In this document: positions 46,846-62,416 of the stretch, piece by piece
Numbering within the stretch: the stretch's first letter is position 1
How the letters are laid out: every line of letters starts with the position of its first letter
NCBI RefSeq assembly: GCF_026184235.1
Contig: NZ_CP110806.1
Span: 4,154,001 to 4,218,000, forward strand
Length of the DNA: 64,000 nucleotides
Direction of reading: 5' to 3'
DNA from: Cellulomonas sp. S1-8
GTDB taxonomy: Bacteria > Actinomycetota > Actinomycetes > Actinomycetales > Cellulomonadaceae
Made by a program: the position numbers and the translations under genes
The notes under the pieces: model-generated
The model's database searches: none
Told to the model about the DNA's origin: nothing
What the model saw: the letters and a program-made list of their open reading frames with translations, nothing else

Positions 46846-46909
46846 ATCCTCGATCCTGGGCGGCGACGCCCATGCGCGGGCGCCACCACCCCCCCAGGAG
46901 TCGACGCCC

Positions 46910-49900
46910 ATGCGCGTGCACACGAAGATCGCCTCGACCACGACCGTGATCGCCCTGGTGGCGGGAGGGACCCTCTGGTCGGCCGTCCCGGCGTCGGCGG
47001 CGACGGCACCCGACCTGGCGTCCGCGATCTTCGCGACGCCCTCGGTGGTGACGGCGTCGAGCCTGAGCGCCCCGTCGGCCGCCACGACGGCCGTCCGCAC
47101 CGACCCGGTCGCGGGATTCCCGAGCCGGGCCGGGGGCTCCTACGCCGTGCTCTCGTCGGGGGCGGCCGCGTCCCTCACCGCAGGCCCGCAGAGCTCGGGG
47201 GCGGACACGAGCTACGTGACCACCTCCTCACGGGGCGGCGCCTACGACGTGACGACGCTCGAGGTCACGCTCGACGTCCCGGCGGGGATCAACTGCCTCC
47301 TGGGTGTCACCTTCCGCTTCCTCACGGACGAGTCCCCCAACGGCACCACCTTCCAGTTCAACGACTCCTTCGTCGCCGAGGTCGGCGCCAGCACCTGGAC
47401 GGTCAACCCCGACCGGTCGATCACCGCGCCCAACAACTTCGCCTTCGACACGTCGGGCCGCCCCATCAGCGTCAAGGCGGGTCTGTTCTCCGTCGCCGGC
47501 GCTGCGGGCGAGGCCGCCGGGACGATCTTCAACGGCGCGACTCCCCAGCTCACCGCCCAGGTCCCGCTCACCGGGGGCGAGGAGCAGAAGCTGTTCTTCT
47601 CGATCTTCGACGTGGGCGACTCCGTGGTGGACTCGGCGGTCCTGATCGACAACCTGCGCATCGGCACGGTCGACGACCCGGCGACGCAGTGCCAGAAGGG
47701 CGCGACGACGAACCCGACGGAGATCCGCGTCTCGGCGACCGCACCGACGCAGGTCGACGCGTTCGGCACCGCCGACGACACGTACACGATCCCGGCCACC
47801 GACGGCGTCGACTACGCGATCGAGGGCACCACCGTCGCTGCTGGGGAGTACCCCGCGACGGGGACCGTCGTCGTCGACGCGACCGCCAAGGCCGGGTACG
47901 AGCTGTCCGGTCCGACGCAGTTCACGCTGGTGTTCACCGACATCCTCGAGGCCACCGCCACCGAGCCCACCTGGGACGACACCTGGGGCACCGCGGACGA
48001 CACGTACACGATCCCGTCGGTGACGGGCGTGGAGTACTCCGTCGACGGCACCCCCGTCGCCGCGGGCAGCTACCCCGCCACGGGCACCGTCACGGTCGAG
48101 GCCGCGGCGACCACCGGCTACGGCCTGACCGGTCCCAGCGCGTTCACGCACACCTTCACCGACATCCGTCAGGTCAGCGCCACCGAGCCCACCTGGGACG
48201 ACACCTACGGCACGGCCGACGACCGCTATACGGTCCCCGCGGTCACGGGCGTGGAGTACACGGTCGACGGTGCGGTCGTGGACCCGGGCACCTACCCCGC
48301 CACCGGCACCGTCACCGTCGACGCCACCGCGACCGCCGGGTACGTCCTGACCGGGCCCTCGCAGTTCACGCACACCTTCACCGACATCCGTCAGGTCAGC
48401 GCCACCGAGCCCACGTCCGTGGACGCGTACGGCACGGCCGACGACACCTACACGATCCCCGAGGTCACCGGCGTCGAGTACGCGGTCGACGGCGCGCCCG
48501 TCACCGCCGGCGACTACCCCGGCGCCGGCACCATCGTCGTCACGGCGACCGCCACCGCCGGGTACGAGCTCACCGGCCCGGCAGAGTTCACGTTCACCTT
48601 CACCGACATCCGCCTGGCGACCGCCGTCGAGCCCACCTGGGACGACACCTACGGCACGGAGGACGACACGTTCACCGTCCCGTCGGTGACGGGCGTGCAG
48701 TACGCGGTCGACGGCACCCCCGTCGCCCCCGGTGAGCACCCCGCGAGCGGCCCCGTCGTGGTGACGGCCACCGCGACCACCGGGTACGAGCTCACCGGCC
48801 CGTCGGAGTTCACGTTCACCTTCACCGACATCCGCCTGGCCACCGCCGTCGAGCCCACCTGGGACGACACCTACGGCACCGCCGACGACACCTACACGAT
48901 CCCCACGGTCACCGGCGTGCAGTACGCGGTCGACGGCACCCCCGTCGCCCCCGGCGAGCACCCCGCGAGCGGCACGGTCGTCGTCACCGCGAGCGCCACG
49001 ACCGGCTACGAGCTCACCGGTGCCTCGGAGTTCACGCGCACCTTCACCGACATCCGCCTGGTCACGGCGCAGGCGCCGACGCAGGACGACCCGTACGGCA
49101 CGGCAGCAGACACCTACACGATCCCGTCGGTGACGGGCGTGGAGTACCGGGTCGACGGGGACGTCGTCGACGCCGGCACCTACCCGGGCACCGGGACGGT
49201 CGTCGTGACGGCGACGGCGACGCCGGGTCACGAGCTGACCGGGCCCTCCGAGTTCACGCTCGTGTTCACGGACATCACCCTCACCGAGGTCGTCGCGCCC
49301 ACGTGGCACGACGTCGACGGCACCGCGGACGACACGTTCACGCTGCCGGCGGTCGACGGTGTCGTGTGGACGCGGGACGGCGGCGTCCTCGCGCCCGGCA
49401 CGCACCCCGGCAGCGGCACGGTGACCCTCGTCGCGACCGCGGCCCCCGGTCACGAGCTCACGGGGACCACGACGCACTCCTTCACGTTCACCGACCTCGA
49501 GCACGTGACGCCGACGGCGCCGACCGCGACCGACAACCCGGGGACGGCGCTCGACGTCGTCACGATCCCCGCGGTCACGGGCGTGACCTACCTGCACGAC
49601 GGGACCGCGCTCGCGCCCGGCGACCACGCCCTCACGGGTGACGTCGTCATCACGGCCGTCCCGGCCGCACCGCGCTACGTGCTCGTCGGGACCACGACGT
49701 TCACGCTCCACCTGTCCGACGTGGACGTCCCCGGTGCGCCGACGATCACCGCCGTCACCGTCGGCAGCCGCAGCCTGACCGTCGCGTTCGCGGCCCCGAC
49801 CGCGACCGGCGGCATCCCCGTCACGGGGTACGCGTACTCGCTCGACGGCGGCAGCACGTGGGTCGAGGCCGACGGCTCGCCGGTGGTGGTGACGGGCCTC

Positions 49901-50602
49901 GTCAACGGGACGGAGTACCGCGTCGCCGTGCGGGCGCACAACGCCCAGGGCCCGGGCAGCGCCACCGCGGTCGTCACGGCGACCCCCGTGCCCGCCCCCT
50001 ACGAGCAGCGGGGTGTCGACGGGACGCTCGCCCTGCCCGCACCGGCGCCCGACCAGGCCGAGGCCTGGGTCGACGGCGCTCGCGTGCCGAGCACGGTGAC
50101 GACCGACGCCGGCACGCGCACCGTCACCGCGGGCAGCGTCCGCGTGACGCTGACCGGGCTCGACGCCTCCGGCCGGCCCGCCGGGGCCGACGGCCGGCTC
50201 GTCGTCACGCCCGACGGCTCGGTGACGGTCACGGGCTCCGGGTTCGCGCCCGGGGAGCTGGTCGACCTGTGGCTGTTCTCGACGCCCGTGCTCCTCGGGA
50301 CGGCGCACGTCGGGTCCGACGGCACCTTCGCGGCGCGGTTCGCGCTGCCCACCGGGGTGCCGGCGGGGCAGCACACGCTGCAGCTCAACGGGACGGCCGC
50401 CGACGGCACGCTCGTGAGCATCGCCTCGGGCGTCCTCGTCGAGGCCGCGCCGGTCGCGGCACCGGCGTCGCCCGCTCCCCGCAGCGCGGCGCTCGCCGTC
50501 ACCGGCGGGTCCGTCGCCGCGGGCGTGGTGCTCGCGACGTCGCTGCTGGCCGCCGGCGGTCTCGCCCTCGCGTTCGCCGGCCGCAGGCGGCGCGACGCCT
50601 GA
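46910..50602 (+). CDS. Surface repeat protein with LAXTG wall-sorting signal
   Basis: The 1230-residue protein has a signal peptide (IALVAGGTLWSAVPASAATA), a choice-of-anchor-L-like domain (residues about 40-265: LDVPAGINCLLGVTFRFLTD), nine 74-residue tandem repeats (47723-49723), one fibronectin III domain (VTGYAYSLDGGSTW), a linker, and a C-terminal sorting signal LAVTGG, a hydrophobic helix and GRRRRDA. LAXTG is the signal used by class E/D sortases of actinobacteria. The ATG at 46910 has AGGAG nine bases upstream. It is likely an adhesin or surface layer protein; the ligand is unknown. Confidence 0.82.
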   Translation: MRVHTKIASTTTVIALVAGGTLWSAVPASAATAPDLASAIFATPSVVTASSLSAPSAATTAVRTDPVAGFPSRAGGSYAVLSSGAAASLTAGPQSSGADTSYVTTSSRGGAYDVTTLEVTLDVPAGINCLLGVTFRFLTDESPNGTTFQFNDSFVAEVGASTWTVNPDRSITAPNNFAFDTSGRPISVKAGLFSVAGAAGEAAGTIFNGATPQLTAQVPLTGGEEQKLFFSIFDVGDSVVDSAVLIDNLRIGTVDDPATQCQKGATTNPTEIRVSATAPTQVDAFGTADDTYTIPATDGVDYAIEGTTVAAGEYPATGTVVVDATAKAGYELSGPTQFTLVFTDILEATATEPTWDDTWGTADDTYTIPSVTGVEYSVDGTPVAAGSYPATGTVTVEAAATTGYGLTGPSAFTHTFTDIRQVSATEPTWDDTYGTADDRYTVPAVTGVEYTVDGAVVDPGTYPATGTVTVDATATAGYVLTGPSQFTHTFTDIRQVSATEPTSVDAYGTADDTYTIPEVTGVEYAVDGAPVTAGDYPGAGTIVVTATATAGYELTGPAEFTFTFTDIRLATAVEPTWDDTYGTEDDTFTVPSVTGVQYAVDGTPVAPGEHPASGPVVVTATATTGYELTGPSEFTFTFTDIRLATAVEPTWDDTYGTADDTYTIPTVTGVQYAVDGTPVAPGEHPASGTVVVTASATTGYELTGASEFTRTFTDIRLVTAQAPTQDDPYGTAADTYTIPSVTGVEYRVDGDVVDAGTYPGTGTVVVTATATPGHELTGPSEFTLVFTDITLTEVVAPTWHDVDGTADDTFTLPAVDGVVWTRDGGVLAPGTHPGSGTVTLVATAAPGHELTGTTTHSFTFTDLEHVTPTAPTATDNPGTALDVVTIPAVTGVTYLHDGTALAPGDHALTGDVVITAVPAAPRYVLVGTTTFTLHLSDVDVPGAPTITAVTVGSRSLTVAFAAPTATGGIPVTGYAYSLDGGSTWVEADGSPVVVTGLVNGTEYRVAVRAHNAQGPGSATAVVTATPVPAPYEQRGVDGTLALPAPAPDQAEAWVDGARVPSTVTTDAGTRTVTAGSVRVTLTGLDASGRPAGADGRLVVTPDGSVTVTGSGFAPGELVDLWLFSTPVLLGTAHVGSDGTFAARFALPTGVPAGQHTLQLNGTAADGTLVSIASGVLVEAAPVAAPASPAPRSAALAVTGGSVAAGVVLATSLLAAGGLALAFAGRRRRDA
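47723..49723 (+). repeat. Nine tandem 222-bp repeats inside the adhesin gene
   Basis: Each unit encodes 74 residues around the pattern EPTWDDTYGTADDTYTIP, GVEYAVDGTPVAPGEHPA, GYELTGPSEFTFTFTDI. Neighbouring units 4-6 are nearly identical in DNA as well, which points to recent duplication or conversion. Units 8 and 9 are the most diverged. The exact 18-base run CACCTTCACCGACATCCG returns every 222 bases. Confidence 0.9.
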
Positions 50603-52393: not shown

Positions 52394-52456
52394 CGGTCTC
52401 GCGAGACCGACAGATCCGGGCTCACCGGTCCCGGAAAGCTCGGTCTCGCGAGACCG
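52394..52456. repeat. Pair of 16-bp palindromes (REP-like)
   Basis: The perfect palindrome CGGTCTCGCGAGACCG occurs at 52394-52409 and 52441-52456, 47 bp apart, each followed by AC and set in a larger CCCGG...CCGGG frame. They lie between the sucrose phosphorylase stop and the next gene and could form two cruciform or terminator structures. Confidence 0.7.
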
Positions 52457-52468
52457 ACGAGGCCCGGG

Positions 52469-53959
52469 TCAGGCGGGGGTGGCGGTGGCGGTGTCCGTGT
52501 CGGTGAGGAACGGCTGCTCGCCTTCCGGGCCCGTCGCGTGGACCTGGAAGGTGCCGTCGGACACGTCGAACGTCAGGGTCGCGCGCGCCTCGCCGGAGAC
52601 CCACGCGAAGCAGCCACGCGTGCCGTCGACGTCCCACTCGAACTCCCCGTCGAACGCCGGGTGCGACGACCGCAGCCGCAGCGCGGCGAGCTGGCCGCGC
52701 ACCGCGGGACGCGTGAGCGCGTCGGCGACCTCGTCCGGCGTAAAGTGGTGACGGTTGACGTCCCGGCCGACGCCGGTGGCCGCGAGCAGGTCCATGTCGT
52801 TGGACCCGGCGAGCAGGCCCACGTAGTAGACCTGCGGGATCCCGGGGACGAACAGCTGCATCAGCCGTGCCAGGAGGTAGCGGCGGTCGTCGCGTGCGAG
52901 GGCGTCGTAGAACGTGCAGTTGACCTGGTACAGGTCGAGGTTCGACGCGGCCGCGCCCGTGGCCTGCCGCGACGTGCCGCCGGAGTTCGCGTGGATGTGC
53001 TCGACGAGCGCGTCGATCTTCTCGGGAGCGAGCAGGCCGGGCTCGCCGGGGCGCAGGTCGGAGGGGCCGACGTCGACGATGCCGATGCCGTCGTGCGTGT
53101 CCAGGACGGTCACCGCGTTGCCGGGCCGGATGGCCAGCCACCCGGCGAGCGGGTCGAGGTCGTGCGCGGTCAGGGCGTGCAGCACCAGCGGCGGCAGCGC
53201 GAAGTCGTAGACGAGGTCGACCTTGCGGGCGATCTCGATCTGCTGGGTGTGGTGCCCGTGCACCTCGACGAGCACCTGCGCGCCGCGGGCGTGCGCCTGC
53301 TCGACGATCCGCTCGGTGTACGCGTCGGTCGCGGGCGTCATGAAGCAGTCCGTGCCGGCCTCCTTGCCGGTGTACCCGACGGCGTCGAGCCGCAGCACCG
53401 TGACGCCGCCGGCGGTCAGCGCGTCGACGACGGACGTCAGGTAGTCCCAGGCCTGCGGCGTGCGCAGGTCGAGGTCGACCTGGTCGGGCGTGAACGTCGT
53501 CCACACCACGCGTCGTCGCCCGCCGAGCGTCATGACCGTGAACGGCAGGCCGGGGCGCGGGCGGTAGACCCGCGCCAGGTCCTCCTCGGTCGCGCCGTCG
53601 GGGAACACGGACCCGAGCGTGAGGAACATGGGCGCGTGCGGGGACGCGTCGCCGCGCTCGCGCACGTCGCGGAAGCGCTCGGAGTCCGCGGAGACGTGGT
53701 TGACGATGACGTCGGCCATGACGGTGCGGCCCTCGGCGAGGCCCCGGACGTCGTCCCAGGTGCCCAGGCGCGGGTCGACCTGCGTGTGGTCGCGCGGGTC
53801 GAAGCCCGCGTCGGCGCCGTCGTACGGCGGGTAGAACGGCAGCACGTGCACGCCGGTGAACGCACCCGCGAGCGCCCCGTCGAGCAGCGCGCGCAGGCCG
53901 GGCAGGTCGCCGGCGAGGCGGTCGGCGTAGGTGATGAGCTGCGGGCCGTGGTGGGTCAC
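52469..53959 (-). CDS. sucP: Sucrose phosphorylase (GH13_18)
   Basis: The 496-residue protein follows bifidobacterial sucrose phosphorylase from end to end: HGPQLITYADRLAGDLPGL, DGADAGFDPRDHTQVD, IYRPRPGLPF-type YRPRPGLPFTV, the nucleophile region RLDAVGYTGKEAGTDCFMTP, acid/base EVHGHH, and the DTHDGIG and PQVYYVGLLAGSNDM loops. It converts sucrose and phosphate to glucose 1-phosphate and fructose. The start is GTG 53959, inside the stop of the upstream hydrolase gene. It is the last gene of the sugar operon. Related GH13_18 substrates (glucosylglycerate, glucosylglycerol) cannot be fully excluded by eye. Confidence 0.87.
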   Translation of the reverse strand: MTHHGPQLITYADRLAGDLPGLRALLDGALAGAFTGVHVLPFYPPYDGADAGFDPRDHTQVDPRLGTWDDVRGLAEGRTVMADVIVNHVSADSERFRDVRERGDASPHAPMFLTLGSVFPDGATEEDLARVYRPRPGLPFTVMTLGGRRRVVWTTFTPDQVDLDLRTPQAWDYLTSVVDALTAGGVTVLRLDAVGYTGKEAGTDCFMTPATDAYTERIVEQAHARGAQVLVEVHGHHTQQIEIARKVDLVYDFALPPLVLHALTAHDLDPLAGWLAIRPGNAVTVLDTHDGIGIVDVGPSDLRPGEPGLLAPEKIDALVEHIHANSGGTSRQATGAAASNLDLYQVNCTFYDALARDDRRYLLARLMQLFVPGIPQVYYVGLLAGSNDMDLLAATGVGRDVNRHHFTPDEVADALTRPAVRGQLAALRLRSSHPAFDGEFEWDVDGTRGCFAWVSGEARATLTFDVSDGTFQVHATGPEGEQPFLTDTDTATATPA

Positions 53960-54969
53960 GCGTCGGGCTCCGTCGTCGTCGGCGACCGGTGTCCGGTCGG
54001 GGTGGGGGCGTAGGTCCGGGCGAGCAGGCGCGCGAGCCAGCGGGCGCGGGCCGTGCGGGCGTCGCGCGACACGGGTGCGTCGGGGACGAGCCCGTCGAAC
54101 CCGTGGCAGCCGCCGGGCCACACGTGCAGCTCGGCGTCGCCGCCGTCGGTCCAGATCCGCGCGGCGTAGCGCACGCACTCGTCGCGGAACGTCTCGGCGG
54201 AGCCGACGTCGACGTACGCGGGCGGCAGGCCGTCGAGCTGCGCGGCGCGGGCCGCCGACGCGTACGCCGGGGTGCTCGGTCCGCCGGCGGCGTCGCCGAG
54301 GTACGCGGCCCAGCCGGTCGCGTTGGCGGTGCGGTCCCACGACCCGACGCCGGCCATCTGCTCACCGGACGCGCTGTCGTTGCGGTCGTCGAGCATGGGG
54401 CACACCAGCAGCTGACCCGCGAGCGTCGGCCCGCCGCGGTCGCGGGCGAGCAGCGCGAGCGCCGCCGCGACCCCGGCACCGGCGCTGACGCCGGTCACGA
54501 CGACGCGCGCGGCGTCCAGCCCGAGCGAGTCGGCCTGCCCGACGAGCCACACGAGGGCCGCGTACGCGTCCTCGACGGCCGCCGGGTAGGGGTGCTCGGG
54601 CGCGAGCCGGTAGTCGACGGACGCGACCGCCCACCCGGGACCGGTCGCGGCGGTCGCGGCGACGTCGTCGGAGACGGTCCCGGCGACGAGCCCGCCGCCG
54701 TGCAGGTGCAGCAGCACGGGCACGGGACCGTCGGACGCGGGCCGCAGCAGCGCCACGCGGACCTCGCCGTCCGGCCCGGGCGCGTGGTGCCACGTCAGGG
54801 TGCGGCGGGCGAGCACGGCGACGTCGTCGAGGTCCGGCGGCTGCGCACGGGCGCGCAGCGCGGCGATCTCGTCGGGGGCGAGGGTCGTGACGACGTCCCC
54901 GGGCCGGTCCGCCAGGGCGGACGCGACCGCCGGGTCGAACGGTGGCCGGGTGGTCCCCTCGCCGCTCAT
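53956..54969 (-). CDS. HSL-type alpha/beta hydrolase (esterase)
   Basis: The 337-residue protein has the hormone-sensitive-lipase family marks: oxyanion motif HLHGGGLVAG, nucleophile elbow GVSAGAGVAA, and the distal CHGFDGL with the catalytic His. The region VGSAETFRDECVRYA holds the third triad residue. No signal peptide is present, so it is intracellular. It starts in the stop of the permease gene and its own stop overlaps the sucrose phosphorylase start; it is thus translated as part of the sugar operon. A role in removing acyl groups from imported sugar esters is inferred from this. Confidence 0.85.
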   Translation of the reverse strand: MSGEGTTRPPFDPAVASALADRPGDVVTTLAPDEIAALRARAQPPDLDDVAVLARRTLTWHHAPGPDGEVRVALLRPASDGPVPVLLHLHGGGLVAGTVSDDVAATAATGPGWAVASVDYRLAPEHPYPAAVEDAYAALVWLVGQADSLGLDAARVVVTGVSAGAGVAAALALLARDRGGPTLAGQLLVCPMLDDRNDSASGEQMAGVGSWDRTANATGWAAYLGDAAGGPSTPAYASAARAAQLDGLPPAYVDVGSAETFRDECVRYAARIWTDGGDAELHVWPGGCHGFDGLVPDAPVSRDARTARARWLARLLARTYAPTPTGHRSPTTTEPDA

Positions 54970-55790
54970 CCCTTCAACGCCCCCTGCATGAGAGCGGTGA
55001 CGAACTGGCGCTGGAACGCGAGGAACACGATGAGCGTCGGCGTGAGGATGAGCAGGGACCCGGCGCACAGCAGCGGGACGTTGGTGCCCCACTGACCCTG
55101 GAACGCCCCGAGGGCACCGGCCATGGTGCGCTTGGTCGGGTCGGACACCAGCACCACGGCGAGCAGGAACTGGTTCCACGTCCACAGGAACATGAGGATC
55201 CCGAGCGAGGACAGCGCCGGCTTCGACAGCGGCAGGTGGATCCGCGTGAACAGCTTCCACGTGCCGGCACCGTCGATGCGCGCGGCCTCGGACAGGTCCT
55301 CCGGCATGTTGACGAAGTGCGCGCGCATCCACATGACCGCGAACGGCATGTACAGGCCGATGAGCGGCAGGATGATCGCCCACCGGGTGTTCAGCAGGCC
55401 CATGTCACGCATCTGGTAGTACAGCGGGACGATGACGGCCTGGAACGGCAGCGTGAGCCCGAGCAGGAACGTCAGGAAGATGACGCGGTGCCCCGGGGGG
55501 CGCAGGTGGCCCAGTGCGAACCCGGCGAGGGTCGCGATGAGCAGGGCGACCGGGACGACGCCGATCTCGATGAGGACGCTCGACCACAGCAGCGCGCCCA
55601 TGTCGGCGACCCGGAAGGCGTCGACGAAGTTCGACCAGTACGGCGTCTCGGGCCAGGCGAGGCCCGACGGGTACGTCCCGGGCTCGTGCAGGGCGGTGAC
55701 GAAGAGGCTGACGAACGGCACGACCGTCACCAGCATGAGGACGACGAGCAGGACGCGGCCCACCCACGTCTCGCGGCGCGACACGATCAT
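54966..55790 (-). CDS. Carbohydrate ABC transporter permease (MalG type)
   Basis: The 274-residue inner-membrane protein has six helices and the EAA loop (EAARIDGAGTWKLFTRIHLP) that contacts the ATPase. It is the second permease of a CUT1 family importer for di- or oligosaccharides. It overlaps the upstream permease and the downstream hydrolase gene, so the operon is fully coupled. No ATPase gene is present; in actinobacteria a shared MsiK-type ATPase usually serves such importers. Confidence 0.9.
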   Translation of the reverse strand: MIVSRRETWVGRVLLVVLMLVTVVPFVSLFVTALHEPGTYPSGLAWPETPYWSNFVDAFRVADMGALLWSSVLIEIGVVPVALLIATLAGFALGHLRPPGHRVIFLTFLLGLTLPFQAVIVPLYYQMRDMGLLNTRWAIILPLIGLYMPFAVMWMRAHFVNMPEDLSEAARIDGAGTWKLFTRIHLPLSKPALSSLGILMFLWTWNQFLLAVVLVSDPTKRTMAGALGAFQGQWGTNVPLLCAGSLLILTPTLIVFLAFQRQFVTALMQGALKG

Positions 55791-56755
55791 CGGGCGTCCT
55801 CCCGGGTGAAGCGCTGGATCGGCAGGACGACCGCGAGCACCAGCGCCATGAAGACGACGGCGAGCGCGGAGGCCTGACCGACCTCGCGGCTGAAGAAGCC
55901 GAGGTAGTAGATCTCCAGGCCGGGCACCATCGTGGAGTTGGCGGGCCCGCCCTGCGTGGAGATGTAGACGATGTCGAAGGCCGCCAGCGCGGAGATCACC
56001 GTGACGGTGACGGCGACGCCGACCTCCTGACGGACGCCCGGGAGCGTGATCGAGAAGAACTCGCGCACGGCGCCGGCGCCGTCGATGCGGGCCGCCTCGT
56101 ACAGCGCGGGGTCGATCTTGGACATGCCGGCCAGGAGCAGGATCAGGCACAGGCCGAGCGCGACCCACGCGCCGATGACGCCGACGGCGGGCAGTGCGGT
56201 GTTCGTGTCACCGAGCCAGGCCCGCGTGAGGCCGCCGAGGCCGAGGGCTCGCATGACCTCGTTGATCAGGCCGTCGGTGGCCAGCAGCCAGGTCCACATG
56301 ATGCCGGCGGCCACGAGCGGGATCACCTGCGGCAGGAACAGGACGGTCCGGGACACCAGCGCGAGCCGGCTGGTCGCGAACTTGCGGATGACGGCCGCGG
56401 CGAGCAGCCCCAGGATCACGGGGACGAAGCTGAAGTAGATGATCAGCTGCAGGGCGTTGCCGATCGACCCGAGCATCCGGGAGTCGCTCAGCAGGCGGGA
56501 GTAGTTCTCGAGCCCCACCCAGGTGGACTCGGTGACGCCGTTCCACTCGTAGAACGAGTACTGGATGGTGAGCGCCAAGGGCTGCAGCACGAACAGTGCG
56601 TAGGCCACCGCGGCCGGGACCACGAGGCCGAGGGCCACCCAGCCTCGGCGCAGGCGCCGCGCCCGCAGGGCGCGGCGCCTGGCCTCGTGGCTGTGCGGGG
56701 TGATCCCCACGGCCTCGCGGACGCCGCTGGTACCGGTCGTCCGCGAGGTGGCCAT
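55787..56755 (-). CDS. Carbohydrate ABC transporter permease (MalF type)
   Basis: The 322-residue protein has six to seven helices, an N-terminal segment typical of MalF-like permeases (VALGLVVPAAVAYALFVLQP), and the EAA loop EAARIDGAGAVREFFSITLP. It pairs with the MalG-type permease downstream. Its start overlaps the stop of the binding protein gene by one base (TGATG). The first 33 residues are polar and basic and lie in the cytoplasm. Confidence 0.9.
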   Translation of the reverse strand: MATSRTTGTSGVREAVGITPHSHEARRRALRARRLRRGWVALGLVVPAAVAYALFVLQPLALTIQYSFYEWNGVTESTWVGLENYSRLLSDSRMLGSIGNALQLIIYFSFVPVILGLLAAAVIRKFATSRLALVSRTVLFLPQVIPLVAAGIMWTWLLATDGLINEVMRALGLGGLTRAWLGDTNTALPAVGVIGAWVALGLCLILLLAGMSKIDPALYEAARIDGAGAVREFFSITLPGVRQEVGVAVTVTVISALAAFDIVYISTQGGPANSTMVPGLEIYYLGFFSREVGQASALAVVFMALVLAVVLPIQRFTREDAR

Positions 56756-58128
56756 CAGCTGCCGATCTCGGACTCGTAGTCGGCCTGGACCGAGGCGAGC
56801 AGGGCCGCGGCGTCGATCTCACCGGCGACGAGCCTCTGCAGGTTGGGGGTCCAGCTGGTGGCGTAGATCGCACCGGTCGCGTTGGCGATGAACTCCATCG
56901 AACCGTTGTCCTCGGCGATCGTGGCGCCGGCCGCGAGGGTCTGGGCGGTCACGGAGTCCGCGTCGACCTCGGGCATGAAGGCGTCCGACGGGCCCATCGG
57001 GTGCGAGCCGCCGATCTCGACGGCGATGGTGCGGGCCTCGTCGTTCGTGGCGATCCAGTCGAGGAAGAACGCCGCACACTCGGGGTTCTCGGCCTTGGCG
57101 GAGATGCCGTACGTCAGCGGCGCCGACATCGCGCCGACGGTGCCGCCCTCCTCGAGCGGGGGCATGAGGAAGAACCCGACGTTGCCGGGCATCTGGGTGT
57201 CGAGGTTCCCCGACTCCCAGTCGCCGTTGAAGATGAACAGGCTCTCGCCGTCGATGAAGCGGCCCATCATCATCGAGTAGTCGAGGGAGTTGATGTCCTC
57301 GGCGAAGTAGCCGGCCTCGATCCACTTCTGCAGGTGCGCGGCGGCCTCGACGTTGCTCTCGGTGTCGATCGTCGAGCCGGGCTGCTGGAAGGTCCAGTCG
57401 TTGATCGCCGACACGTCGCCGTAGGAGGCCATGAGCGCCTGCAGCGGGAACGCGAGGCCGCCGGTGGCGCCACCGTTGAACTGCGTCGACGGCGTGATGC
57501 CGGCGTCCTTGGCCGCCTGCATGAAGCCGTCGAGCTCGGCGAGCGTCGCCGGCGCCTCGGTCATGCCGATCTGGGCGGCGAGCTCCTTGTTGTAGAACAC
57601 GCCGGTCATCGAGTAGTTCAGACCCTGGGCGTACAGGGGGCCGTCGCCGCGGCGTCCCTCGTCGTCGACGCGCATCTGCTGGAGCTGCGACGCGGGCCAC
57701 TCGTCCCAGCCGAGCGCCGTGGCGGCCTCGTCGAGGTTGTAGAGCAGGCCGTCGGCGGCCAGGTCGGACACCTGCGGCAGACGCATGAGGTCGGGCGGGT
57801 CGTCGGCCAGGACGCGGGGGGCGTTCTGGGTGATGACCGCGAACTGGTCCTCGCGGACGTCGAACGTCACGTTCGGGTACTGGGCCTCGAACTCGTCGAA
57901 GAGCGCGGCGGAGAGCGGGAACCCGGTCTCGATGTACGCGTCGAGCGTGACGTCGTCGGTACCGCAGGTCCAGTCGCCGTCGGCGGCGACCGTGTCACCG
58001 TCGGCGGTGGCCTGGTCGTCGGTGGTGCCGCCGCCGGGTGCGCTGCACGCCGTCAGGGCGAGGATGCTTGCCAGGAAAACGGACGAGGCTGCGGCCGCGT
58101 TCCGTGACCTTCCAGTCGATCGAGACAC
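56755..58128 (-). CDS. Sugar-binding lipoprotein of the ABC importer
   Basis: The 457-residue protein has a signal peptide with lipobox LTAC|SAP and the fold of CUT1 family solute-binding proteins: LFDEFEAQYPNVTFDVRED near the start, GVFYNKELAAQIGM, FIFNGDWESGN, and LTYGISAKAENPECAAFFLD. It captures the substrate outside the membrane and hands it to the permeases. The start is GTG 58128 with AAGGGAG at the right distance. The operator at 58179-58194 lies 51 bases upstream. Confidence 0.9.
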   Translation of the reverse strand: MSRSTGRSRNAAAASSVFLASILALTACSAPGGGTTDDQATADGDTVAADGDWTCGTDDVTLDAYIETGFPLSAALFDEFEAQYPNVTFDVREDQFAVITQNAPRVLADDPPDLMRLPQVSDLAADGLLYNLDEAATALGWDEWPASQLQQMRVDDEGRRGDGPLYAQGLNYSMTGVFYNKELAAQIGMTEAPATLAELDGFMQAAKDAGITPSTQFNGGATGGLAFPLQALMASYGDVSAINDWTFQQPGSTIDTESNVEAAAHLQKWIEAGYFAEDINSLDYSMMMGRFIDGESLFIFNGDWESGNLDTQMPGNVGFFLMPPLEEGGTVGAMSAPLTYGISAKAENPECAAFFLDWIATNDEARTIAVEIGGSHPMGPSDAFMPEVDADSVTAQTLAAGATIAEDNGSMEFIANATGAIYATSWTPNLQRLVAGEIDAAALLASVQADYESEIGS

Positions 58129-58178
58129 CGGTGTCTCCCTTCATCGGGTCGGCCTCCGGGGGGGCTCCGGTGACCGTT

Positions 58179-58194
58179 GCTAAATCGTCTTAGC
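58179..58194. promoter_or_regulatory. LacI-type operator in the divergent promoter
   Basis: GCTAAATC followed by GTCTTAGC: the left half fits the ideal palindrome GCTAAATC/GATTTAGC exactly, the right half with two changes; the centre is CpG, the mark of LacI-family sites. It stands between the ABC operon and the LacI gene. A second copy is at 62333-62348. Confidence 0.75.
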
Positions 58195-58363
58195 GCTGCC
58201 ATGCTCGCCACTGTTCCGCAGGCGTGTCAAGCGGTGGCAGGTCACGGATCGATGACGCCGCCGCGGCGACCCGGGAGAAGTCGGACAGTCGTCCGGATGG
58301 GAGCGCGACCGGCGCCGGGCGCCCTGACGCCACCTCTAGGATCGCTGCGACGAAAGGACCGAC

Positions 58364-59428
58364 GTGACCCGACGCGTGACGCTCGCCGACGTCGCCCGCA
58401 CCGCCGGGGTGTCGTCCACGACGGCCTCGCTCGTGCTGTCCGGGCGGGGCTCGGAGCTGCGCATCTCACCGGCCGTGCAGGAGCGCGTCCGCGACGCCTC
58501 CGCCGACCTCGGCTACCGCCCGAACATCGTGTCCGTCGGGCTGCGCAAGGGCACCACCCGCACGCTCGGCCTCGTCTCCGACACCGTCGCGACCGGCCAG
58601 ATGGCCGGCGACATGATCAAGGGCGCCATCGAGGCCGCCCGCGACCACGGCTACATGCTGTTCATCGGCGAGACCGAGGGCGACCCCGCCATCGAGAGCG
58701 CCCTCATCGACGCCATGCTGGACCGCCGCGTCGACGGGATCATGCTCACCTCGATGTTCACGCGCACCCGCGCCGTGCCCGCCGCCCTCGAGCGCCTGCC
58801 CACCGTGCTGCTCAACACCCTGCCCAGCGGTCCGACGCGCGCGCCGGCCGTCGTCCCCGACGAGGTCGAGGCCGGCCGTGCCGCCGCACGCCTGCTGCTC
58901 GACGCCGGGCACCGCGACCTCCACCTCGTCGGCGCCGGCCCTGGCCCCGACGACGTGCCGCCCGACACCGTCGCCGGCCACGAGCGCCTCACCGGCATCC
59001 TCGAGGTCCTGCACGCCGCCGGCCTCGAGCCCGCGTCGGGGCACCTGTGCGACGACTGGGTGCCGCCGCAGGGCTGGGCCGCCACGCACGACCTGCTCGA
59101 GCAGCACCCGCGCCCGCGCGCCGTCATCTGCTTCAACGACCGCCTCGCGTTCGGCACCTACCAGGCGCTGCAGGAGGCGGGCCTGCGCATCCCCGACGAC
59201 GTGTCCGTCGTGTCGTTCGACAACTACGAGATGGCCGGGTGGCTGCGGCCCGGCGTGTCGTCCTTCGCGATCCCGCACGAGGCCCTCGGCCGGCGCGCCG
59301 TGGAGCTGCTCATCGGGCAGGTCACGCGCGGTGCGGACGGTGACGCGCAAGGCGCTGCCGACGGCGCCGGGGCGGTGCACCGCCTGCCCCTGCCGCTGTG
59401 GTCGCGCGGCTCCGTCACCCCGGCCTGA
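58364..59428 (+). CDS. LacI-family transcriptional regulator
   Basis: The 354-residue protein has the N-terminal LacI helix-turn-helix (VTLADVARTAGVSSTTASLV and the hinge GYRPNIVSVGLRKGTTR), followed by a periplasmic-binding-protein-like effector domain (LGLVSDTVATGQ, DGIMLTSMFT, VICFNDRLAFGTYQAL, DVSVVSFDNYEMAGWL). It probably represses the sugar operon until the sugar or a derivative is bound. GTG 58364 has AAAGGA upstream. It is divergent from the ABC operon, and the operator between them suggests autoregulation. Confidence 0.92.
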   Translation: MTRRVTLADVARTAGVSSTTASLVLSGRGSELRISPAVQERVRDASADLGYRPNIVSVGLRKGTTRTLGLVSDTVATGQMAGDMIKGAIEAARDHGYMLFIGETEGDPAIESALIDAMLDRRVDGIMLTSMFTRTRAVPAALERLPTVLLNTLPSGPTRAPAVVPDEVEAGRAAARLLLDAGHRDLHLVGAGPGPDDVPPDTVAGHERLTGILEVLHAAGLEPASGHLCDDWVPPQGWAATHDLLEQHPRPRAVICFNDRLAFGTYQALQEAGLRIPDDVSVVSFDNYEMAGWLRPGVSSFAIPHEALGRRAVELLIGQVTRGADGDAQGAADGAGAVHRLPLPLWSRGSVTPA

Positions 59429-59467
59429 CGGCGGGACCGTCCTGACGGCGGGACCTTCCTGACGGCG
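59424..59467. repeat. 17-bp tandem repeat over the lacI stop codon
   Basis: CCTGACGGCGGGACCNT occurs twice in tandem (59424-59440, 59441-59457) and a third, partial copy CCTGACGGCG follows (59458-59467). The first copy contains the TGA stop of the LacI gene. Confidence 0.7.
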
Positions 59468-59474
59468 CACCGGA

Positions 59475-59501
59475 CCGCCCCCGTCGCGAGGACGAGGGCG
59501 G
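59475..59501. terminator. Hairpin between the LacI gene and the surface esterase
   Basis: CCGCCC (59475-59480) and GGGCGG (59496-59501) enclose further pairing of CCGTC with GACGA. It stands between two convergent genes and probably ends both transcripts. Confidence 0.65.
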
Positions 59502-59513
59502 CCCGGCGTGGGG

Positions 59514-62291
<2,778 letters not shown>

Positions 62292-62332
62292 GCGTGTCTC
62301 CTTCGACAGTGCTGATCCGGTGCAGCGGCGTT

Positions 62333-62348
62333 GCTACACCGATTTAGC
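62333..62348. promoter_or_regulatory. Second LacI-type operator, before the surface esterase
   Basis: Read on the minus strand, GCTAAATC and then GGTGTAGC: again one perfect half (GCTAAATC), a central CpG and two changes in the other half. It differs from the site at 58179 only in the middle of the weaker half, and sits 42 bases upstream of the esterase start. Confidence 0.75.
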
Positions 62349-62416
62349 ACCCTAAGCGGGAGCCCCGAAGACGACAATCAGTACGGCCCATCGGTGCGCA
62401 GCGTGCGTCGCCGCGA

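Follow-up and report, generated by a model that had tools for sequence, protein, structure and literature searches.

Why would a sucrose phosphorylase operon contain an esterase gene and lie beside a second one, coding for an exported esterase, under the same type of operator? The question is raised by a locus of Cellulomonas sp. S1-8, whose genome comprises 4,504,702 bases in one contig; we read the locus within a stretch of 64,000 nucleotides, here called the window. Plants make many sucrose esters, and acylated sucroses serve them partly in defence. We propose, with a probability of about 0.58, that the locus is a LacI-controlled regulon for the utilisation of O-acylated sucrose (and sucrose). 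We infer repression by LacI, an inducer, and a division of labour between two esterases acting on acyl-sucrose. Without substrate, LacI would block both operators. Upon induction, a wall-anchored esterase, EstA, would strip acyl groups outside the cell, and a CUT1 binding-protein transporter would import sucrose with some acyl groups left. A cytoplasmic HSL-type esterase (HSL) would take off the remaining groups, and sucrose phosphorylase would cleave the resulting sucrose to glucose 1-phosphate and fructose. Sequence evidence supports the gene content, the operon layout, the operators, the membership of EstA and HSL in the regulon and the presence of sucrose-splitting enzymes by the orthologous transporter.

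Five minus-strand genes form one predicted operon, in the order SBP, permease 1, permease 2, HSL and sucP. SBP is a sugar-binding lipoprotein (56755–58128; PF01547; lipobox LTAC by eye) and is followed by two CUT1 permeases, both matching PF00528 (permease 1, 55787–56755; permease 2, 54966–55790). HSL is a family IV esterase of 337 aa (53956–54969; PF07859), and sucP, which has a GTG start, encodes a sucrose phosphorylase (GH13_18) of 496 aa (52469–53959). The genes overlap by 4 (sucP/HSL), 4, 4 and 1 nt. A LacI-family regulator gene (58364–59428, plus strand; PF00356 and PF13377) is divergent from the SBP operon and convergent with the gene for the EstA-type exported esterase (59514–62291, minus strand), a protein of 925 aa that matches PF18435 in 2 stretches with 174.6 bits. 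One LacI-type operator, TTGCTAAATCGTCTTAGCG, is located in the divergent region between LacI and SBP (58177–58195, ~58 bp before the SBP start) and a second, TTGCTACACCGATTTAGCA, ~49 bp before the EstA start (62331–62349). The names of the window genes agree with the Pfam, NCBIfam and PDB matches of their products.

An earlier note on this DNA had described an overlapping minus-strand operon of these five genes, a divergent LacI gene and an adjoining esterase with a wall anchor under a similar operator. We found every gene, the 1–4 nt overlaps, both operators and a LAVTG motif in EstA. Of the overlapping stops and starts that it noted, the one between HSL and sucP is not kept in relatives: in 23 of 24 loci, ~30 to 235 bp separate the match ends of the two genes. 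SBP and the two permeases match family models for the parts of a CUT1 importer. No ATPase gene lies within the operon; a shared ATPase for sugar importers is usual in actinobacteria.

The assignment of the sucP product as a sucrose phosphorylase, and with it a sucrose core of the regulon, is well supported by sequence comparison. The protein scores above the TIGR03852 cut-off (382.8 vs 334.4 bits) and slightly below that of the C-terminal Pfam model PF09244 (21.2; cut-off 23), and it resembles the Bifidobacterium adolescentis enzyme 1r7a (E 2e-168, aligned over residues 7–471). Its loop-A motif, NLDLYQ, fits the fingerprint N(L/V)D(I/L/V)YQ given for sucrose phosphorylases (PMC7178133). The motif EVHGHH also occurs in the 1r7a alignment, and no (T/S)ETN motif is present. 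On the basis of the loop motif, we rejected the candidate functions of glucosylglycerate, glucosylglycerol and sucrose-6-phosphate phosphorylase. The window enzyme and 1r7a share the same loop-A motif and differ in gene context, and we saw nothing in the window protein that predicts another substrate.

Operators and the extent of the regulon

The sites before SBP and before EstA share the palindrome TGCTAA-N2-CG-N2-TTAGCA. A pattern built from both, allowed up to 2 mismatches, matches no other place in the 4.5-Mb genome; its backward control gave 0. We searched for TGCTAANNCGNNTTAGCA with at most 1 mismatch in 46 genomes: 34 chosen through sucP/SBP searches that had found the system, the first 6 listed genomes of the genus in which sucP had no match, and 6 taken through named loci. 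Sites occurred in 40 of the 46, a count that shows where sites are placed and not how frequent the system is, the choice being biased towards genomes that bear it. The backward control gave 0 in all 46, and no site was found in the 6 genomes that lack a sucP match.

Counting each palindrome once (including one in G355 that recurs in an overlapping locus), we obtained 53 sites (genomes and loci of relatives carry G and L numbers). Forty lie before SBP, one per genome; 11 precede EstA-type genes, one of them shared with a divergent PF00756 esterase gene; and 2 precede HSL genes that stand apart from the operon (G355, G520). Sites at the single-repeat EstA genes of L044, L049, L180 and L181 were placed from EstA match coordinates and, for L180 and L181, by open frames, ~80–100 bp from the start. 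Three further sites before SBP were seen in genomes outside the 46 (L168, L170, L171). Two genomes have EstA apart from the operon: in G187 it lies on a different contig, in G186 at a distance of 2.86 Mb in contig coordinates. In both, the only site not before SBP is the one before the unlinked EstA. Of 15 genomes in which EstA was matched (E ≤1e-20), 11 carry an operator before it at up to 1 mismatch. A palindrome that is conserved and found before the putatively regulated genes only is what a local sugar regulon of a LacI regulator would display. It seems that a single repressor, LacI, governs both the uptake and splitting of sucrose and two esterases, one at the surface and one inside the cell.

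The internal and the exported esterase

HSL carries the motifs HGGG, GVSAG, FRDE and CHGF and matches PF07859 with 171 bits. Its HGGG, GxSAG, Asp and His motifs align with those of the family IV esterases 7wol and 7b4q; unlike these, it belongs to a separate clade tied to a sugar ABC operon. No signal peptide was seen by eye. The protein resembles HSL-family acetyl esterases/lipases at scores below their cut-offs, and its closest named relatives are mostly from Cellulomonas.

A search of the family with the phosphorylase as query gave 81 places, 41 of them read in wide context (the own window and 40 relatives); the presence of the phosphorylase in these is by construction. At 25 of the 29 places with at least 72% phosphorylase identity (the own window and L040–L067) HSL adjoins the enzyme, the others being L057, L059, L061 and L064. 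The earlier note had held that absence of the esterase from related sucP operons would count against its idea; the comparison does not go against it for HSL, which only these four of the 29 close loci lack beside the phosphorylase. In 10 of the 12 wider loci below 72% identity (L068–L079) no HSL was seen; the exceptions, L068 and L070, encode a more distant HSL (44%) accompanied by permeases and an SBP of its own. Both belong to a second operon type. In L068 (2979–12466) SBP, permeases, HSL and a PucR-like gene are accompanied by genes for an S15/CocE-like hydrolase, an alpha/beta hydrolase and sucrose phosphorylase, the two hydrolase genes being placed between the transporter and HSL genes and the phosphorylase gene; L070 was read by tblastn only.

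A FastTree phylogeny of 69 HSL sequences placed the 42 from LacI-type loci in one clade (support 0.963), outside which fell 21 relatives from other contexts, 5 from other operon types and one paralogue of the own genome, used as root. L003 and L004, with short matches, were left out, and L183, a broken contig with HSL, EstA and a phosphorylase relative but no SBP, was counted as LacI-type. The 80 loci found with HSL as query are uninformative on HSL frequency. Where HSL has moved out of the operon, it carries its own operator (L093, L167). Adjacency in 25 of 29 loci, the single clade and the separate operator of moved copies rule out HSL as a chance neighbour.

EstA consists of two repeats, each an EstA_Ig_like domain (PF18435) plus an alpha/beta-hydrolase domain, and resembles 3doh (E 4e-32), an Ig-like esterase, presumably of Thermotoga origin, that has the same two parts. 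Unlike 3doh, the window protein has a tandem repeat, a wall anchor, an Arg for the catalytic-type His in repeat 1 and a predicted place in a sugar regulon. By eye it shows a signal peptide, the LAVTG motif, a hydrophobic helix and a basic tail, and the genome has 3 sortase matches; with all features of LPXTG-like proteins present, EstA is a predicted sortase-anchored wall protein.

The earlier note called EstA a double esterase. Two repeats are indeed present, and in repeat 1 Arg replaces the catalytic-type His, while the Ser/Asp/His set of repeat 2 is complete. We aligned the repeats of six two-repeat proteins (window, L040, L047, L048, L161, L165) with the single-repeat L180 and L181 and the second part of L091, leaving out L044 and L049. 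Ser and Asp stand at the expected places in 15 of 15 repeats and His in 14 of 15; the five other two-repeat relatives have His in both repeats. Perhaps repeat 2 alone is active in the window protein. A general claim that repeat 1 of EstA is inactive was rejected, given that the His-to-Arg change occurs only in the window copy among the 15 repeats. Single-repeat forms within the genus match repeat 2.

EstA is patchier than HSL. It was found in 8 of 18 searched same-genus genomes with the operon and 0 of 6 without a sucP match, by itself a weak difference. Beyond the genus, EstA genes with an operator of their own accompany the full operon in L161 and L165, of another family, and LacI/SBP loci in L191, L192 and L196, of a further one. 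L091 (C. massiliensis) encodes a fusion of an EstA repeat with a PF00756 esterase, and a single operator in L167/L182 is flanked by an EstA gene and a PF00756 gene. A separate observation concerns L196 (3434–13997), where two tandem EstA genes are found at the LacI/SBP locus, with GH32 and PfkB-like kinase genes nearby.

The orthologous transporter and competing explanations

Sucrose is a substrate common to sucrose phosphorylases, GH32 and GH68 enzymes and alpha-glucosidases. We examined what the transporter travels with, using SBP as query in samples of order- and class-level genomes (347 and 394). SBP was found in 25 of the former and, at a stricter threshold, in 16 of the latter, the own genome included in both counts. 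Gene calls in relatives come from a simple caller or from tblastn spans, and L058, L092, L160 and L192 end at contig ends. Nine of the 15 order-level loci outside the family (L160–L174; SBP at least 64% identical) have sucrose phosphorylase. L167 encodes a short GH32-like enzyme together with a PfkB kinase, L160 has a GH32 gene beside LacI, and no phosphorylase or GH32-type enzyme was seen in L169 and L172–L174. HSL is present in 13 of the 14 uncut loci of this set, L162 being without it; in L172–L174 it is a distant form (42–45%) divergent from SBP, with a PucR-like regulator gene.

Among the 14 class-level loci (L187–L200), Pfam identified GH68 in six (L190, L191, L194, L195, L197, L198) and a GH32-like enzyme in one (L200), and L187, L193 and L196 show weak GH68/GH32-like tblastn similarity only. 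A GDSL hydrolase gene directly follows permease 2, the place of HSL in other lineages, in L188 (8354–9568), L189 (5858–6757) and L199 (5788–6666). In L190 and L193 a distant HSL relative, matching PF07859 in L190, is encoded downstream of the GH68(-like) gene. In L093, from Microbacterium, a GH32-like gene follows those of the permeases, and HSL is preceded by a separate operator. Next to SBPs of ~40% identity we found genes for GH13 alpha-glucosidase-like or GH32-like enzymes. The short GH32-like enzymes of L093 (4494–5468) and L167 (8640–9608) are ~310 aa long, and Pfam recognises in them the N-terminal GH32 domain alone.

The pairing and co-regulation of esterases with a sucrose-type operon, as put forward in the earlier note, are borne out by the 53 sites in 40 genomes, by the unlinked, operator-bearing EstA genes of G187 and G186 and by the GH32-like or GH68 enzymes encoded where an orthologous transporter has no sucrose phosphorylase. 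Its interpretation (surface deacylation, import, internal deacylation, phosphorolysis) is supported in part, for gene pairing and co-regulation. That there is one regulon around a sucrose-type transporter rests on sequence evidence, and beyond this we infer the acyl substrate.

Transporters of this family probably carry plain sucrose as well, because some operons lack HSL (L059, L162) and because the queries used found no esterase in the GH68 loci L194, L195, L197 and L198. Such operons belong to a group of observations that weigh against an acyl-sucrose regulon. With the same queries, no esterase was found in L187 and L200 either. At up to 2 mismatches, such an operator is absent from the GDSL loci and from L172–L174; the GDSL loci also lack a close LacI gene. 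In five HSL loci (L090, L097, L106, L112, L169) no sucrose phosphorylase or GH32 gene was found alongside, and therefore the link to sucrose is there by orthology alone. EstA is present in only 8 of the 18 operon-bearing genomes of the genus, and 4 of the 15 EstA-match genomes have no site before EstA at up to 1 mismatch; G518 has one with 2 mismatches, in G480 and G262 none was seen at up to 2 mismatches within the stretch read, and the fourth genome is G495. To these points may be added the bias in the choice of the 46 genomes, the absence of any gene noticed in the regulon for the acid product, and the breadth of the families of HSL and EstA, from whose sequences acyl specificity is not readable.

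Of the alternatives, a plain sucrose regulon survives best, and we consider it unlikely. Imported free sucrose would serve as a plant cue, and LacI would co-induce esterases for other plant esters, such as cell-wall feruloyl/acetyl groups and phenolic esters. EstA-type domains do show likeness to feruloyl and PHB-type esterases, the EstA gene is neither always present nor always linked to the operon, and operons without HSL agree with this explanation as well. However, a cytoplasmic esterase encoded between permease and phosphorylase genes suits an imported ester, and 25 of 29 close loci keep it there. The GDSL hydrolase after the permeases elsewhere and the operator of moved HSL genes likewise argue against it.

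It is distinctly improbable that the imported substrate is some other acylated sugar containing sucrose or fructose, such as acylated fructan fragments or acyl sugars of the raffinose type. The GH32-like and GH68 partners could accept fructosides too, but the window phosphorylase has the loop motif of sucrose phosphorylases, and no alpha-galactosidase or endo-fructanase was noticed beside the loci read, without a systematic search. Least probable is a repair or detoxification role in which HSL would undo acetylation by sugar acetyltransferases of the cell itself or act on a toxic co-imported ester: its likeness to acetyl esterases/lipases would fit, but the co-regulation of an exported esterase (operator before EstA in 11 of 15 EstA genomes) is left unexplained.

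For the acyl-sucrose regulon, likely natural substrates are plant acyl-sucroses such as the phenylpropanoid sucrose esters. These esters carry cinnamates on sucrose and may also be acetylated (PMC11397724), and acylsugars have been reported in tomato root exudates (PMC7047909).

Two features of the window stand apart from these questions. Just after the sucP stop (52395–52455) the perfect palindrome GGTCTCGCGAGACC occurs twice, with a spacing of exactly 47 bp; the genome has 11 copies, 10 of them in clusters with a 47-bp step and a variable stretch between, and the control gave 0. The stretch after sucP folds well as RNA (z −4.6), and the palindromes look like an intergenic repeat element. At ~46900–50602 (plus strand) lies the gene for a large exported repeat protein with ~8 copies of YGTADDTYTIP..VTGVEY..DG and a C-terminal hydrophobic segment (by eye).

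Relation to known systems and biological meaning

LacI-type sucrose regulons that combine LacI, a sucrose transporter and phosphorylase genes have been described, including bifidobacterial ScrR with ScrP (PMC4052901, PMC4746261); neither paper uses the word "esterase" in its main text. ScrR/CscR regulons resemble the window system in keeping LacI, sucrose transporter and phosphorylase in one local regulon. Unlike them, the window system has an ABC importer and an internal and an exported esterase under a common operator. LacI sucrose regulons are thus known, and what is new is a variant that adds the two esterases.

Acetylated plant oligosaccharides are known to be handled by deacylation, import and intracellular cleavage. 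Such systems share with the one proposed here esterases, import and intracellular cleavage of the sugar, and differ in the core, which is sucrose here and a xylan or mannan fragment there. Among the open-licence PMC papers searched, we saw no title or abstract start that describes bacterial catabolism of acyl-sucrose, whether by soil or by leaf bacteria.

We see even odds that a dedicated acyl-sucrose pathway, built around one orthologous transporter, extends across several actinobacterial families. In its LacI form, one conserved operator would govern the importer, HSL and an exported esterase (EstA or PF00756). In the transporter family at large, unrelated esterases (HSL, GDSL) and likewise unrelated sucrose-splitting enzymes (GH13_18, GH32-like, GH68) would have been recruited interchangeably; the GDSL form has so far been seen under a control other than the LacI operator. 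The regulon offers genes, a regulator and an operator for the direct study of acyl-sucrose use, and its enzymes could serve to deacylate or to make sucrose esters. It also shows how a sucrose operon may extend to a protected form of the sugar.

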